A stretch of DNA of 64,000 nt from positions 1-64,000 of the IMG/VR virus record IMGVR_UViG_3300044910_000225; one strand, given 5' to 3'. Under the pieces are notes generated by a model. It saw only the letters and a program-made list of their open reading frames with translations. It was not told the DNA's origin and did no database searches. The DNA is from a virus. The translations under genes were made by a program, and so were the position numbers. Each line of letters opens with the position of its first letter. The first letter of the stretch is position 1. This document shows, in pieces, positions 21,178-30,361 of the stretch.

Positions 21178-21423
21178 ATGACTACTGAAGATATCCCACT
21201 ACAGAAAGATGGTCTATGGGTAGGAATACCACTGATCAGTGAAAGTACTAGTATATACAATGCATCTACTAATGACATGCTGGTAAGACTAGGTGCAAGC
21301 AGTACAAGCTATGGTATCACAGTACCAAAGGGAGCAACAGTACTAGTAGATGAGACAGTATACGTAAGACCACTGAAGCATTCTAATGTACCAAATGTAG
21401 GCTACATCATGGTGACAAGATGA
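21178..21423 (+). CDS. Small beta-rich protein, 81 aa, probable fibre base or decoration
   Basis: Starts just after the previous stop. Beta-rich sequence (TSIYNASTNDMLVRLGASST, SYGITVPKGATVLVDETVYV) resembling small virion decoration or fibre-attachment proteins. Overlaps the collagen-like fibre gene by 4 nt, which suggests the two products act together. Confidence 0.5.
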   Translation: MTTEDIPLQKDGLWVGIPLISESTSIYNASTNDMLVRLGASSTSYGITVPKGATVLVDETVYVRPLKHSNVPNVGYIMVTR

Positions 21424-22394
21424 TAGCACCTGATAATACAATAGATCTACGAAGACCTGCAACAGGTACAGGTACTACAGAAGTAGTGGTTGGTAGTGAT
21501 GGACTATCTGCGTATCAGCTAGCTGTGAACAATGGATTTGTAGGTACTCTACAACAATGGCTCCTATCACTCAAAGGAGCTGATGGGACAATAGGGCAAG
21601 ATGGTAGTCCTGGTACTAATGGGCTAGACGGGGCAGATGGATACACCCCTGTGAAAGGGATAGACTACTTCGACGGTGCTACAGGTCCAAAAGGAGACAA
21701 AGGAGATACTGGTCTGCAAGGTCCTCAAGGAGCACAAGGTATTCAAGGCATACAAGGACCTCAAGGACCTCAAGGTATCAAAGGAGATACGGGTACAGCA
21801 GGCACTAATGGAACTAACGGTACAAATGGCGTAGGAGTGCCAGTAGGCGGGACAGCTGGTCAAGTCTTATCCAAGATAGACGGTACAGACTACAACACAC
21901 AATGGACTACACCATCAGTAGGTGGCGGAGGTTTGACTGCTCAAACAGCAATACTTACTGCAACACAAGCCTCTACTGTAGTCACTATGGCAAACGTGAC
22001 AGCATTAGCTTTACCTATGGAAGCCAATGCAGTGTATCAAGTTGTTTGCTTTGTGACATTTCAATCTGCCGCAACTACAACTGGATTAGGCTTAGGCTAT
22101 ACCTCACCATCAGGGTGTAGATGTATGTGTGAGATAGTAGTGCCATTAACAAGTACAGCTGTAGCCTCTCAACTACGTACAATATTTCCAAGTGCTGCAA
22201 TAGCTACTAATACTGGAAGCGTGTTAGGTACTGGTGTAACTGCTATCAACTCTAACCATACTGCAATGATAAGGGGTATCATTCGCAATGGAGCAACTGC
22301 TGGTAACTTCCAAGTACAGTTTAGAAGCGAGATAGCCTCAAGTGCTGTGACTTTGCAAATAGGTAGTGAGCTGCAGCTCATACGAATAGCTTAA
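21420..22394 (+). CDS. Collagen-like head or tail fibre, 324 aa
   Basis: Residues 1-50 are an attachment part. About residues 55-130 consist of Gly-x-x collagen repeats (GPKGDKGDTGLQGPQGAQG and GTNGTNGTNG), forming a trimeric shaft. A Gly hinge (VGGGGLTAQ) leads to a C-terminal jelly-roll-like tip of about 150 residues. Such fibres decorate phage heads or tails and bind surfaces. Its position between portal and scaffold favours a head or neck fibre. Confidence 0.7.
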   Translation: MIAPDNTIDLRRPATGTGTTEVVVGSDGLSAYQLAVNNGFVGTLQQWLLSLKGADGTIGQDGSPGTNGLDGADGYTPVKGIDYFDGATGPKGDKGDTGLQGPQGAQGIQGIQGPQGPQGIKGDTGTAGTNGTNGTNGVGVPVGGTAGQVLSKIDGTDYNTQWTTPSVGGGGLTAQTAILTATQASTVVTMANVTALALPMEANAVYQVVCFVTFQSAATTTGLGLGYTSPSGCRCMCEIVVPLTSTAVASQLRTIFPSAAIATNTGSVLGTGVTAINSNHTAMIRGIIRNGATAGNFQVQFRSEIASSAVTLQIGSELQLIRIA

Positions 22395-25720: not shown

Positions 25721-26494
25721 ATGGGAATACCTTCAGCTACAATCAATCTATCAAATAACATCCTCACTACTACTACAACATCAGTAGTAACCATATCATT
25801 CAGTGAAGCTGTGACAGGATTTACAGTAGGAGATATAGCAGTATCCAATGCAACACTAGGCACACTGACAACTACAGACAATATCAACTTCACAGTGACA
25901 ATGACAGGTGCCAGTAACGTACTGGATAATAGCAATACTGTATCCATAGCAGATGCAGTGTGTACAAGTGTATCAACCAGTCAAGCCAATACAGCAGCAA
26001 CAAGTACAAACTACACAGTCAATACAGTAGAAGTAGTAATAGATCCAAGTGTAGTAACTGATGGTACAGCGAGTGTAACAGGAGATGGTGTATTTGATGT
26101 GTTCATGCAAGCAATAGCAGCACATCTCAAAGTAGAATATGATGCAAGACGTATCACATCAGATACATATCCTACAGTCTATCTAGGAGCACTACAGACA
26201 GCACTGACACAAGCAGTGACATTCTCACTACAAAGACCACTGATAGAGAAACAAGCTAATAGTGAAGATGCTAAGAAAGCACTCATAGAGAGACAGACAA
26301 AAGGATTTGATGATGATGCTAAACAGAAGCTATTGAAGCAAGCTCTAGATTCATGGTCAGTAGCATACTCAGTGGCTCAAGATGCAAACTCAATCCCTGA
26401 TGCTATCAAGGTCAATCCGATAGATAGTATCATGAAGAATGCAATGGACAGTCTAGCTATCGTCAAAGGTAATAACCCTCTAGGAGAAATCTAA
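25721..26494 (+). CDS. Ig-like virion protein, 257 aa
   Basis: Residues 1-95 look like a bacterial Ig-like domain (VVTISFSEAVTGFTVGDIAV, a Big-type pattern). The C-terminal 150 residues are helical, with VFDVFMQAIAAHLKVEYDAR and SLQRPLIEKQANSEDAKKAL. N4-like phages place a structural protein here (gp54 position). RBS AAAGGAAT. It starts MGIPSA. The stop overlaps the ACP start codon (TAATG). Confidence 0.6.
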   Translation: MGIPSATINLSNNILTTTTTSVVTISFSEAVTGFTVGDIAVSNATLGTLTTTDNINFTVTMTGASNVLDNSNTVSIADAVCTSVSTSQANTAATSTNYTVNTVEVVIDPSVVTDGTASVTGDGVFDVFMQAIAAHLKVEYDARRITSDTYPTVYLGALQTALTQAVTFSLQRPLIEKQANSEDAKKALIERQTKGFDDDAKQKLLKQALDSWSVAYSVAQDANSIPDAIKVNPIDSIMKNAMDSLAIVKGNNPLGEI

Positions 26495-26745
26495 TGGAAG
26501 TACTAGAGTTTCTAAATAAGAAGATAAGAGAAGAACATGGTAACAAAGTCACAATAGAGTCAAAGTGGACTGATGCAGGTATAGACAGTTTTGGATCTAC
26601 AATGGTACTGTGTGACATGGATGCAGAATATGGATGCTTTGATAAAGAATGGTTCAATACTACAGACTTCTATACGTTGACCATACAAGATATAGTCGAA
26701 AGGGTTATCAATGAAAGTCCTAAGCTACAAGTACCTACTGCCTAA
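26494..26745 (+). CDS. Acyl carrier protein
   Basis: 83 residues with the layout of an ACP: helix 1 (VLEFLNKKIREEHG), loop, AGIDSFG with the predicted phosphopantetheine serine Ser32 at the start of helix 2 (DSFGSTMVLCDMDAEYG), and a final helix after TLTIQDIVERV, the usual ACP ending. The canonical motif is DSL; here DSF. It is translationally coupled to the Ig-like gene upstream (TAATG) and overlaps the ketoacyl synthase gene by 35 nt. A host holo-ACP synthase would have to charge it. It would carry acyl chains for the two following enzymes. Confidence 0.82.
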   Translation: MEVLEFLNKKIREEHGNKVTIESKWTDAGIDSFGSTMVLCDMDAEYGCFDKEWFNTTDFYTLTIQDIVERVINESPKLQVPTA

Positions 26746-27544
26746 TACTGAAGGTATCATAGAAGAACTGGATAGAGATGGATATATGACTACACAGTAT
26801 ATCAGACTGGTAGAAGACTATATCAATACTATAGAACTAAAAGGTAAAGTAGCATTCCTGTATGCAGGTGGTGTAACAGCTACTGTCAGTGAATGTAGAA
26901 ATGCTGTGAATACTGATAAGTACAGAGAGAAGCTAAAGCCAAGTGGTATGGGAATACGAGATCTAGCAGCATACAGTATGCATAAGTGGGTAGGTATGAT
27001 GAATGGGAAAGAGAACATATGCTATGCTAATATAAATGGTAATACATGTGCAAGTAGTATGTACTGTATATACGAGGCTCAGGAGCTACTGAAGAATGGA
27101 TATGATGAAGTTATCATAGTAGCAGAAGAAAAGACCTCACACAGTACTCTACGTGTGTTTGATGAGCTACGTATAGATATCAAGATAGGAGAAGCTCTAG
27201 CAATCATACATCTCGGTAAAGGTACTGGTATAAGCAACTGCAAAGTATGGTATGAGTACAACAGCAATCCATTCGGAGTAACACCAACAGGATACTGTAA
27301 AGTGGTGTCAGATAGTGACTATATCAATCCTCATGGCACAGGTACAGCTATCAATGAATGTGCTGAGTCTGAAGTATATGGGGATACTCCACAACTACGA
27401 TACAAAGAGACTATAGGGCATACACAAGGTGTCAGTGGTCTAGTAGAAGTATGTATGGTACTTGATGAAGATGTGAGTGGTAAAGTACTGTGTGTCTCAA
27501 GTGGTCTCGGAGGGTTCTATGCCTCATGCATCGTACACAAGTAA
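26711..27544 (+). CDS. Minimal beta-ketoacyl-ACP synthase (KAS)
   Basis: 277 residues with thiolase-fold condensing-enzyme motifs in order: NTCASS with nucleophile Cys113; YDEVIIVAEE matching the family AD-x-I-x-GG strand; IGEALAII (Glu161) as in GEGA; NPHGTGT with His208; YKETIGHTQG with Lys232 and His237 at K-x4-H; and a C-terminal SGLGGFYASCIV like the FGFGG motif. The Cys-His-His set matches elongating KAS I/II, not KAS III (Cys-His-Asn). Usual enzymes have about 410 residues, so insertions and cap segments are missing. Start at 26711 with AAAGGG upstream. It should condense acyl and malonyl units on the adjacent ACP, or may have been repurposed for acyl transfer. Confidence 0.85.
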   Translation: MKVLSYKYLLPNTEGIIEELDRDGYMTTQYIRLVEDYINTIELKGKVAFLYAGGVTATVSECRNAVNTDKYREKLKPSGMGIRDLAAYSMHKWVGMMNGKENICYANINGNTCASSMYCIYEAQELLKNGYDEVIIVAEEKTSHSTLRVFDELRIDIKIGEALAIIHLGKGTGISNCKVWYEYNSNPFGVTPTGYCKVVSDSDYINPHGTGTAINECAESEVYGDTPQLRYKETIGHTQGVSGLVEVCMVLDEDVSGKVLCVSSGLGGFYASCIVHK

Positions 27545-28007
27545 TGGTGATCTCTACTGTGTAGAGAAAGTCACAGACCACTCAGAAGTAGCAACAGATG
27601 TATTGATGATACTGGCAGATGCTGAGATAGAGAATGTAGATGAATATAGTGCTAGAATGCATGAAGCAATAGACCAAGGACTAGCATACCATATAAAGAA
27701 GAACGGTGCAACAGTAGGAATCATGTACAACAGAGTCCATGAGGGTAAATATGAAGGATCCTGCATATACTGCAAGAATGATACAGTAGGTATGATGATA
27801 CTACTAAAGACAATGTTTGAAATTAATGATGCACATAAGATATACGTAATGCCTTACAAAGGCAGTATTAAATACTTCCTATCACTAGCAACAGAAGCAA
27901 GCATAAAAGCATATCATGTTAAAGAAGCACCACTAGTAATAGTGAAGAATACAATAGTACCAAAAGGTACAAGAGCTTTCAGATACCTAGAGATAGAGGA
28001 ACTATAA
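27519..28007 (+). CDS. GNAT-like acyltransferase (putative)
   Basis: 162 residues from ATG 27519 (MPHASYTSNGD), chosen for GGAGGG five bases upstream and a 26-nt overlap with the synthase. The fold pattern resembles small GNAT proteins: helices at 20-50, strand pair (LAYHIKKNGATVGIMYNRV), a strand-turn-helix (GSCIYCKNDTVGMMILLKTM), and a C-terminal strand with FRYLEIEEL. The acyl-binding R/Q-x-x-G-x-G/A loop is not clear, so the call is tentative. GNAT-fold enzymes that use acyl-ACP to modify proteins are known (HlyC/ApxC). Adjacent to ACP and KAS, it is a natural acyl-acceptor enzyme. Confidence 0.5.
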   Translation: MPHASYTSNGDLYCVEKVTDHSEVATDVLMILADAEIENVDEYSARMHEAIDQGLAYHIKKNGATVGIMYNRVHEGKYEGSCIYCKNDTVGMMILLKTMFEINDAHKIYVMPYKGSIKYFLSLATEASIKAYHVKEAPLVIVKNTIVPKGTRAFRYLEIEEL

Positions 28008-30361
28008 TGGGAGCAGTAGTAGATGTAGTGGAAGATACACTAGAAGACTTCGTAGCTATAACAACAATCATACTCATCAACATGTTTCCAGGTGAGGCAC
28101 TGATACTAGCATACCTGTGTGATGAGTGTGAATCATTCATGAGTGATCAGATAGGTATAACACTAGGATGGTTAGGCATAGAAGAAGAAGATGTCATAAC
28201 AGTACAGATGCAAGATCAGCTACTGATACAAGACCAGGACTTCTACAAGAACCTCATGACACAAGTAGCAATAGAACACCAAAGAACTCAGAAGGGAATC
28301 ATAGACCTACTAGCTGTAAAGTCACAAGGTGTAAGAGGATCAATGAATAAATACTCAAGTTATGGTAAGAGTACATTCCTAGATGGTGAACCTACTACGA
28401 CTGTCAATACTGTAAACATAGATGAGAGTGTGGTAGAGTTAGCAATAGAGACTGATACTGGCGAGAACATAACTGTGACATCACTATCAATGAGAGTACC
28501 AACAGAGACAGAATGGGTAGGATACAATCTGACATTCACACATGACTATAATCCTACCACAGGAATACTGATATATACTGGTGTGAGATACATGGTATTC
28601 TCAAGTACATATAACTATGGTACAGGTAAGTATGATGTGGAGATAGGCAGAGAATGCATACAGACAGTGACAACAACTGTGACAGTAACAAACATAGACG
28701 CTACAACAGATAATGTGCATACAGTAGTAGAAACAATAGTTACAGCATATGAGGGTATAATCAGCACAACAACAAATACAACTGATGTTGTAGTACCAAT
28801 CGGGACAGTCTCAAACAGTACAAATGTAGTAACTACAAACATAGTGGTGGGAACAACACTGTTATATGTAGATGACTTCTTACCAAATCTAGCATATGTA
28901 GCACACTACACAATCGTAGGAAGCAGTGATGAGTACTACTGGATATACTTCGTAGGATCAGGAAATGCAGCTCTAGACAATGCAAGAAACTACCTCACTG
29001 ACCTTGATATGCTACCAATAGTAGAACTACGAAGTAATGCTACATCAATCACAGCAGACAAAGAAAGTACTAGGTACAAGCAATCAAAAGAGATACTAGG
29101 ATTCATAGGCATAGATGTAGATACAATGTGTGAAAGCATAGACAGCAATCCAAATGTGGATGGTATAGCAGCAGCATATGTGTACTTCGGAGCAGAACTA
29201 GGAAGCAATGACCCAATCCAAGCAGAACTGATATATGCAACAATGGAGTATATCTATGATGATCCAACTCTAGTAACAGATGGTGTGCATACCATACGAG
29301 TACAAGAAGGAAACTACAACTCATCAATATCATGGGATGAACAAGAACGTCTAACAGTATCAAGAACTGGAGTACCAGTAGGAACGTATGAAGGTGGTAT
29401 AGGGGATATAGCAATAGTAGAGGATGTGCCAGATGAGGAAGGTAATGTAATAGATACAGAGACTAAGTATAGATACTATGCATGGGTACGAAAGCAAGTG
29501 ACTAGCTCATACTATGTAGAATACAGAGTATATAATGTGTCAGCAATAACACTGATCACCAAAGGTGCAATGTATGATACAGTATTCAAAGTACTATCTC
29601 CTGACAATACGATAGTAATACCACTGAGCATATACTTCCTGAACAAGCTGACACCAATAGAGCAGGGAGTAGTATTCCCACAGATACTGAGAATGGTAAC
29701 ATACGCTGCTGATATACAGCATCTAGACTACTACCAGACGGAAGCATTCTTCAACCTGATACAAGTTGTAGTAGTAATTGTAGCAATAGTAATATTCATA
29801 TTTACATGGTACACAGGTGGAGCAACATCAGCAGCATTCATGACAGCAGTAGAGGGTCTACTGATAGGAATGGCAATAGGCTATGCACTACAGATGCTAC
29901 TGGCTGCAGTAGACAATCCCTACCTAAAAGCACTGATAGTAGTAGTAGCTGTGATAGTAGCAGTATACACAAACCAATTCAATGGGGATATGCTAAAAAC
30001 CGTAGTGTTCTCAGCAGATCTACTACTGACTGCAGTAACACAATATGCAGACTCAATACTAGAAGGAGGATTCTCAGCACTAGCAATGGAATCACAGAAC
30101 TTCTTGGAGAAAGCAAAGGAAGCAGAAGATAAACTGAATGAGTATACTGATATGATAGCAAGTGTACTCAGTACAGAGGAAGTACAAAGATTATCTAGAA
30201 TGCAAGAAGCTAAAGCATACATAGAAGGATTTGAGCTACAACGATATAGAGCAAGCGTAGACTTCATGTGCAACTGGGATCTAGTAAAGTCAATGAAGAT
30301 GAATACAAACATATATGACTATGATCAACACTATAAAGTGAATGTACTAAGCATAGGCTAG
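28007..30361 (+). CDS. Large internal virion protein with membrane segments, 784 aa
   Basis: Start overlaps the previous stop (TAATG), so it is translationally coupled to the acyl cassette. An N-terminal amphipathic region (ITTIILINMFPGEALILAYL) is followed by a Thr/Val-rich beta region (about residues 140-330) and a central acidic part. Strong hydrophobic segments lie near 585-650 (VVVVIVAIVIFIFTWY, LIVVVAVIVAVY), followed by a coiled coil. It matches the position of N4 gp52-type structural proteins. Membrane-inserting segments suggest an ejected channel-forming protein. It begins MGAVVDV. Confidence 0.65.
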   Translation: MGAVVDVVEDTLEDFVAITTIILINMFPGEALILAYLCDECESFMSDQIGITLGWLGIEEEDVITVQMQDQLLIQDQDFYKNLMTQVAIEHQRTQKGIIDLLAVKSQGVRGSMNKYSSYGKSTFLDGEPTTTVNTVNIDESVVELAIETDTGENITVTSLSMRVPTETEWVGYNLTFTHDYNPTTGILIYTGVRYMVFSSTYNYGTGKYDVEIGRECIQTVTTTVTVTNIDATTDNVHTVVETIVTAYEGIISTTTNTTDVVVPIGTVSNSTNVVTTNIVVGTTLLYVDDFLPNLAYVAHYTIVGSSDEYYWIYFVGSGNAALDNARNYLTDLDMLPIVELRSNATSITADKESTRYKQSKEILGFIGIDVDTMCESIDSNPNVDGIAAAYVYFGAELGSNDPIQAELIYATMEYIYDDPTLVTDGVHTIRVQEGNYNSSISWDEQERLTVSRTGVPVGTYEGGIGDIAIVEDVPDEEGNVIDTETKYRYYAWVRKQVTSSYYVEYRVYNVSAITLITKGAMYDTVFKVLSPDNTIVIPLSIYFLNKLTPIEQGVVFPQILRMVTYAADIQHLDYYQTEAFFNLIQVVVVIVAIVIFIFTWYTGGATSAAFMTAVEGLLIGMAIGYALQMLLAAVDNPYLKALIVVVAVIVAVYTNQFNGDMLKTVVFSADLLLTAVTQYADSILEGGFSALAMESQNFLEKAKEAEDKLNEYTDMIASVLSTEEVQRLSRMQEAKAYIEGFELQRYRASVDFMCNWDLVKSMKMNTNIYDYDQHYKVNVLSIG

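Follow-up and report, generated by a model that had tools for sequence, protein, structure and literature searches.

The HlyC-type RTX acyltransferases belong to the GNAT superfamily, are similar in size to the GNAT-fold protein described here, are encoded beside the gene of their membrane-active substrate and take the acyl chain from acylated acyl carrier protein (ACP). Eukaryotic N-myristoyltransferase, also of the GNAT fold, places a fatty acid on the N-terminal glycine of viral capsid proteins. In Salmonella, IacP is a dedicated ACP for the acylation of SipB, a translocon protein of the type 3 secretion system; it binds the beta-ketoacyl-ACP synthase (KAS) FabB, and the acylation of SipB promotes its insertion into the membrane (PMC5279801). 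Amongst phages, the cobaviruses and phage G11 have been reported to carry a GNAT that adjoins internal virion proteins, with T7 gp13 as the proposed counterpart (PMC6775973, PMC10142737). Here we analyse a stretch of 64,000 nucleotides of viral DNA (the window; positions 1 to 64,000 of IMG/VR record IMGVR_UViG_3300044910_000225), in which genes for a predicted ACP, a short KAS and a GNAT-fold protein lie directly before the gene for a predicted internal virion protein of the kind ejected into the host. We propose, with a probability of about one half, that through this module the phage acylates its ejection protein by an ACP-dependent pathway of its own. What favours the modification of a virion protein is the strict coupling of GNAT gene and ejection gene in phages that are unrelated.

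The genes concerned, numbered from the first letter of the window, are as follows.

25721..26494, + strand: gp54-like (N4) virion protein bearing a bacterial Ig-like domain (Big_12) at its N-terminus, the upstream flank of the module (Pfam Big_12, 7e-17; phrog_2050 virion structural protein, 1e-32; N4-like gene order)
26494..26745, + strand: predicted ACP of 83 aa, with Ser32 of a DSF motif as the site for phosphopantetheine (family profile match to ACPs)
26711..27544, + strand: predicted short KAS of 277 aa (PF02801 match; Cys113, His208, Lys232 and His237)
27519..28007, + strand: GNAT-fold protein of 162 aa, the proposed acyltransferase (AlphaFold2 model and Foldseek)
28007..30361, + strand: predicted N4 gp53-like internal (ejection) virion protein of 784 aa, N-terminus MGAVVDVVEDTLEDF, the proposed substrate (phrog_2220, 6e-37; tblastn to gp53 of N4-like phages)

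The stop codon of the gp54-like gene overlaps the start of the ACP gene in the sequence TAATG, a second TAATG is found at 28007, and the ACP and KAS genes overlap by 35 nt and the KAS and third genes by 26 nt, all as described in an earlier reading of the DNA made without database searches (the sequence-only reading). That reading had also placed the three genes between an Ig-like virion gene and a large internal virion gene, which are here the gp54-like gene and the homologue of N4 gp53; the latter protein contains hydrophobic segments. For the third gene the most likely start is the ATG at 27519, and not the GTG at 27477, since the alignments of its homologues begin at the former. The trio is found in many contigs at high divergence and its reading frames are therefore under selection.

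The nearest demonstrated parallel is that of IacP and SipB. In both cases a dedicated ACP is encoded with a protein of delivery that inserts, or is predicted to insert, into a membrane, and in the phages this holds for the complete loci of both module-bearing lineages. However, SipB has no known acyltransferase and its site is an internal cysteine, whereas the phage set includes a GNAT and a KAS and has a viral setting. HlyC is similar in being a GNAT-fold protein that adjoins the gene of a membrane-active substrate, but it uses the ACP of the host and modifies internal lysines, and no match to its family, PF02794, was seen up to an E of 5 for the third protein of the window or of 1 for its relatives. 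With N-myristoyltransferase the phage system would share, by analogy, a GNAT-fold enzyme that acylates the N-terminus of an entry protein, at what is in the phage a putative site; the eukaryotic enzyme differs in its acyl-coenzyme A donor, in having two GNAT domains and in being encoded by the host.

Coupling of the GNAT and ejection genes

Amongst 107 GNAT-bearing loci, ten without a following large open reading frame (ORF) end within 263 bases, leaving 97 that could be tested. In all 97, from two kinds of phage, a large ejection-type gene lies directly after the GNAT gene, its start nearly always falling between -21 and +10 nt from the GNAT stop. This gene is gp53 in the N4-like lineage and the first ejection-type gene in P22-like phages. 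Over most of their length the ejection proteins of the two lineages are unrelated, and they have a common N-terminus, M-[S/G/A/T]-A-V-V-x-x-V, as seen in MGAVVDVVEDTLED of the window and MGAVVEFVEDAGDF of locus L093. At residue 2 the 76 distinct ejection N-termini have serine (35), glycine (25), alanine (8), proline (4), threonine (2), cysteine (1) or arginine (1). Glycine and serine together make up 15.6% of this position in the other ORFs of the same loci, although no probability has been put on the enrichment, as the ejection N-termini are related to each other. Within the first 30 residues lysine is present in only 23 of the 76 and cysteine in three, so that the alpha-amine is the only nucleophile that is always present. 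Neither residue is conserved close to the N-terminus, and both were for that reason rejected as a general site of acylation.

In T7 (gp13 and gp14), the cobaviruses and G11 a small GNAT or GNAT-like gene is likewise found directly before the gene of the first ejection protein. Unlike the module these have no ACP or KAS, and they show no detectable sequence relation to either GNAT family: profile-profile comparison of both families with T7 gp13 gave no relation, and neither the third protein nor its relatives match PF11090 (Phage_T7_Gp13). As an observation in its own right, gp14 of T7-like phages, encoded directly after gp13 (PF11090), begins MC(W/E/D/V) in nine of the 11 phages examined (L143:3729-4319, L150, L151, L153-L158), and the ejection protein of L004 (MCDP) shares the MC start. 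Cysteine is at position 2 in none of 507 background ORFs; the Cys2 of gp14 is a lead and not a test. In Escherichia phage Ro45lw (L152:1346-1756) a gene for endonuclease VII lies between gp13 and gp14.

The carrier protein and the synthase

The product of 26494..26745 is predicted to be an ACP. A profile built from 21 of its relatives gives NodF (1fh1) as its best match, at 3e-7, together with many solved ACPs, and Asp31 and Ser32, the latter being the site for phosphopantetheine, are invariant in all 21. This agrees with the sequence-only reading, which had singled out Ser32. The direct comparison with the Pfam ACP family PF00550 that it had suggested is borne out for three of the 21 relatives, the ACP of the window alone having no match. 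No recognisable AcpS is encoded in the phage record and a host enzyme would therefore have to activate the phage ACP.

The product of 26711..27544 is predicted to be a short beta-ketoacyl-ACP synthase of the FabB/FabF type. It scores 22.7 bits against PF02801 (Ketoacyl-synt_C), where the gathering cut-off is 20.8, and all 22 aligned relatives match the same family; in the PDB the family profile finds FabF-type synthase chains at 1e-17. The residues proposed from the letters alone, Cys113, His208 and His237 of the Cys-His-His triad and Lys232 of the K-x4-H motif, are invariant in the 22. The N-terminal domain, PF00109, which had been expected alongside PF02801, is not matched by the KAS of the window and by only nine of the 22 relatives. 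At 277 aa, compared with about 400 aa for the full-length double thiolase fold, the protein is without much of the N-terminal half.

Species genomes of bacteria and archaea, 84,980 in all, were searched with two phage KAS sequences as queries, and neither gave a match. On these grounds the KAS looks like a phage family, and there is accordingly no host or prophage context for it. A tree that included bacterial FabF-like rows was poorly resolved, with one bacterial row in the wrong frame. Many records labelled as Listeria and Enterococcus phages also match the KAS; these resemble FabF of bacteria and were left out of the evidence.

The GNAT-fold protein

Searches with the third protein gave no tblastn match in phages and no significant match in Pfam, NCBIfam or the PDB, and it is therefore placed by comparison of folds only. 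Weak and partial matches to DUF5751, single-stranded DNA-binding, RNase II and histidine kinase families were rejected. In the AlphaFold2 model, made from 13 sequences (pLDDT 76.8), the order of strands and helices is that of a GNAT, and the closest structure in the PDB found with Foldseek is human Naa50 (probability 1.00), followed by other N-acetyltransferases. The model thus indicates that the third protein has the GNAT fold, as the sequence-only reading had supposed from the predicted order of strands and helices. Its P22-like counterpart is modelled with a pLDDT of 94.3 and has 44 fold matches at E up to 0.001, all of them N-acyl- or N-acetyltransferases, SpeG and PseH (Foldseek probability 1.00) included. 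In the P22-like proteins the polar residues Glu39, Asn52, Asp73 and Asn77 are invariant.

Lower in the list of fold matches of the window protein is SbzI, a GNAT that works with the carrier protein SbzG. This would fit a different role for the trio, in which its product is a small molecule (an N-acyl amino acid, for example, or a signal), as with GNAT-fold enzymes of the LuxI/FeeM type that use acyl-ACP. FeeM is a GNAT-type N-acyl amino acid synthase that acts with its own ACP, FeeL, a gene content similar to that seen here. Such a role, however, leaves unexplained both the constant place of the GNAT gene immediately before the ejection gene and its staying there where the ACP and KAS genes have moved, and it seems to us very improbable.

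The motif for binding coenzyme A (CoA) between strand 4 and helix 3, [QR]xxGx[GA], is absent from all 13 members of the GNAT family of the window; in the P22-like family it is matched in five of 50, scattered and apparently at other positions. The canonical motif is likewise absent in GNATs that use acyl-ACP. Its absence would also be consistent with another reading, in which the GNAT-fold protein has no catalytic function and serves the ejection protein as a chaperone or scaffold, and in which the ACP and KAS are not enzymes but structural or allosteric partners. T7 gp13, which occupies the same place before gp14, is classed as a probable scaffold protein (PF11090), and ACP can serve as a structural subunit in other systems. 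Against this, the catalytic Cys, His, His and Lys of the KAS are invariant across very divergent phages, as is the serine of the ACP, and the P22-like GNATs hold their four polar residues. We therefore think a purely structural role unlikely.

Distribution and stepwise gene content

The same series of genes was found by tblastn in the genome of a P22-like phage, MW202545.1, whose virion is unrelated; the order there is a small ORF, KAS, a small ORF and a large ORF, with a gene for an SLT transglycosylase further on. In scans of viral contigs the phage KAS was found at 135 loci. An ACP gene lies directly upstream in 134 of these, and the exception begins at the edge of its contig. The trio had at first been taken as peculiar to this phage, but it is widespread and occurs in both N4-like and unrelated P22-like phages, where its genes overlap, lie among virion genes and are placed directly before the ejection gene.

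In a third lineage the ACP and KAS genes adjoin a helicase gene, outside the structural operon; here an ORF resembling the dehydratase FabZ, recognised by eye from the sequence, follows the KAS in two loci (L023:6953-7384 and L033:4168-4632). In one phage of this lineage (contig of L021) the ACP-KAS pair is elsewhere in the genome and the GNAT gene, about 20 kb away, is still just before an ejection-type gene, which encodes a protein of 1151 aa beginning MSAVGNALAAI. From the place of the trio in the structural operon it had been concluded that it must act late. This is not borne out in that form, since one related lineage has its ACP and KAS outside that operon while its GNAT is still found beside the ejection gene. 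In a viral contig of 128 kb (L019:5657-6852) an ACP-KAS pair was seen beside an ORF for an AAA-type ATPase, with no GNAT or ejection gene detected nearby.

In canonical N4-like phages gp53 directly follows gp54. A GNAT alone, of the same family as that of the window, is present in L184 and L187. In a close relative with 73% capsid identity (L166:10174-11447) the trio is replaced by a GNAT with the canonical CoA motif, and the protein after it begins MGGFIDDVFDFVEDVV. The cultured Alteromonas phages vB_AmeP_PT11-V19 and R22Y resemble the window in having an ACP and a third gene, a GNAT of 167 aa, between gp54 and gp53, but differ in having no KAS alongside. All three genes are found in the lineage of the window and in the P22-like lineage. 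Along this gradient the constant companion of the ejection gene is the GNAT, and an order of assembly can be inferred in which the ACP and later the KAS would have joined to provide the GNAT with its acyl donor. The missing CoA motif in the GNAT family of the window agrees with this.

The distribution also bears on the possibility that the phage ACP and KAS change the fatty acid pool or membrane of the host during infection, the GNAT being an unrelated neighbour concerned with virion assembly. By motif the ACP and KAS are complete fatty-acid proteins, and in L023 and L033 the FabZ-like ORF accompanies them outside the structural operon. The ACP of R22Y was published, in its authors' own reading, as an auxiliary metabolic gene (PMC11705849), and acpP-fabF-fabG has been reported in prophages (PMC8224337). 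On the other hand, the overlapping of the genes among virion genes in the N4-like and P22-like phages, directly before the ejection gene, tells against such a role; PT11-V19 and R22Y retain the ACP with the GNAT with no adjacent KAS; and a KAS of 277 aa, in a module with no FabG, FabZ or FabI, would make no complete cycle by itself. This explanation seems to us rather unlikely. The sequence-only reading had considered both acylation of virion proteins and a general rewiring of host lipid or signal synthesis; the coupling of GNAT and ejection gene favours the former, and the latter stays as a rival.

Neighbouring genes

The record that contains the window, of 67.7 kb, is that of an N4-like phage, with homologues of the portal, major head protein, gp53 and gp54; terminase, RNA polymerase and replication genes are also encoded. 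The N-terminal addition to the gp54-like protein (25721-26494) varies, being the Ig-like Big_12 domain here and longer or absent in relatives. Between the portal and capsid genes of the window (21420-22394) is a collagen-like protein of Gly-X-Y repeats that matches phage tail fibre families.

Proposed mechanism

Each step of the mechanism is inferred from the anatomy of the genes. Phosphopantetheine would be attached by host AcpS to the phage ACP at Ser32, and the phage KAS would load an acyl chain onto this ACP or extend one already there. The GNAT would then move the chain to the ejection protein while this is being synthesised from the following gene, the two genes being coupled in translation. 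The likeliest target would be the alpha-amine of residue 2 (Gly, Ser, Ala, Thr or Cys) once the methionine has been removed, though an N-terminal site is less certain than acylation in general. The acylated protein would be packaged and, on ejection, may insert more easily into the envelope of the host and form the channel for the DNA there. An ACP-KAS-GNAT set, a link between such a set and ejection proteins, and acylated ejection proteins of phages were all looked for in the open-access literature, and no report of any of them was seen.

A number of points weigh against the proposed acylation. The model of the window GNAT is of only moderate confidence, and comparison of the profiles of the two GNAT families, that of the window and the P22-like one, shows no relation between them. 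Why the GNAT should need a KAS of its own is not explained by anatomy alone. Four of the 76 putative substrates have proline at position 2. In the N4-like survey 35 of the 44 gp53 homologues have Gly2, and nearly all of these homologues come from phages in which no module was detected, so that Gly2 alone is no signature. In three N4-like contigs (L163, L167 and L235) the N-terminus of gp53 is extended and no GNAT lies between its gene and gp54; these rule out the extension as a trait of the module only. It may be added as a separate observation that the gp53 proteins of N4-like phages without the module (L179, L193, L202, L222 and others) very often begin MGLFS-KK, resembling eukaryotic myristoylation signals.

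Implications for short-tailed phages

It has long been asked how short-tailed phages bring soluble, packaged proteins to form a DNA channel in the envelope of the host. With an ACP, a condensing enzyme and a transferase all encoded next to the ejection gene, lipid anchors are suggested as part of the answer. A broader proposal, and a doubtful one, is that N-terminal fatty-acylation of ejection proteins is general in short-tailed phages, with the GNAT as the core and some lineages adding ACP, KAS and even FabZ for a chosen chain; this would perhaps include T7 gp13 acting on Cys2 of gp14. If true, it would be the first virus-encoded pathway for N-terminal lipidation. The acylation proposed for the module also offers a testable role for GNAT genes, including T7 gp13, that adjoin internal virion proteins, and under it one class of the 'auxiliary metabolic genes' of marine phages would be re-read as enzymes of virion maturation.
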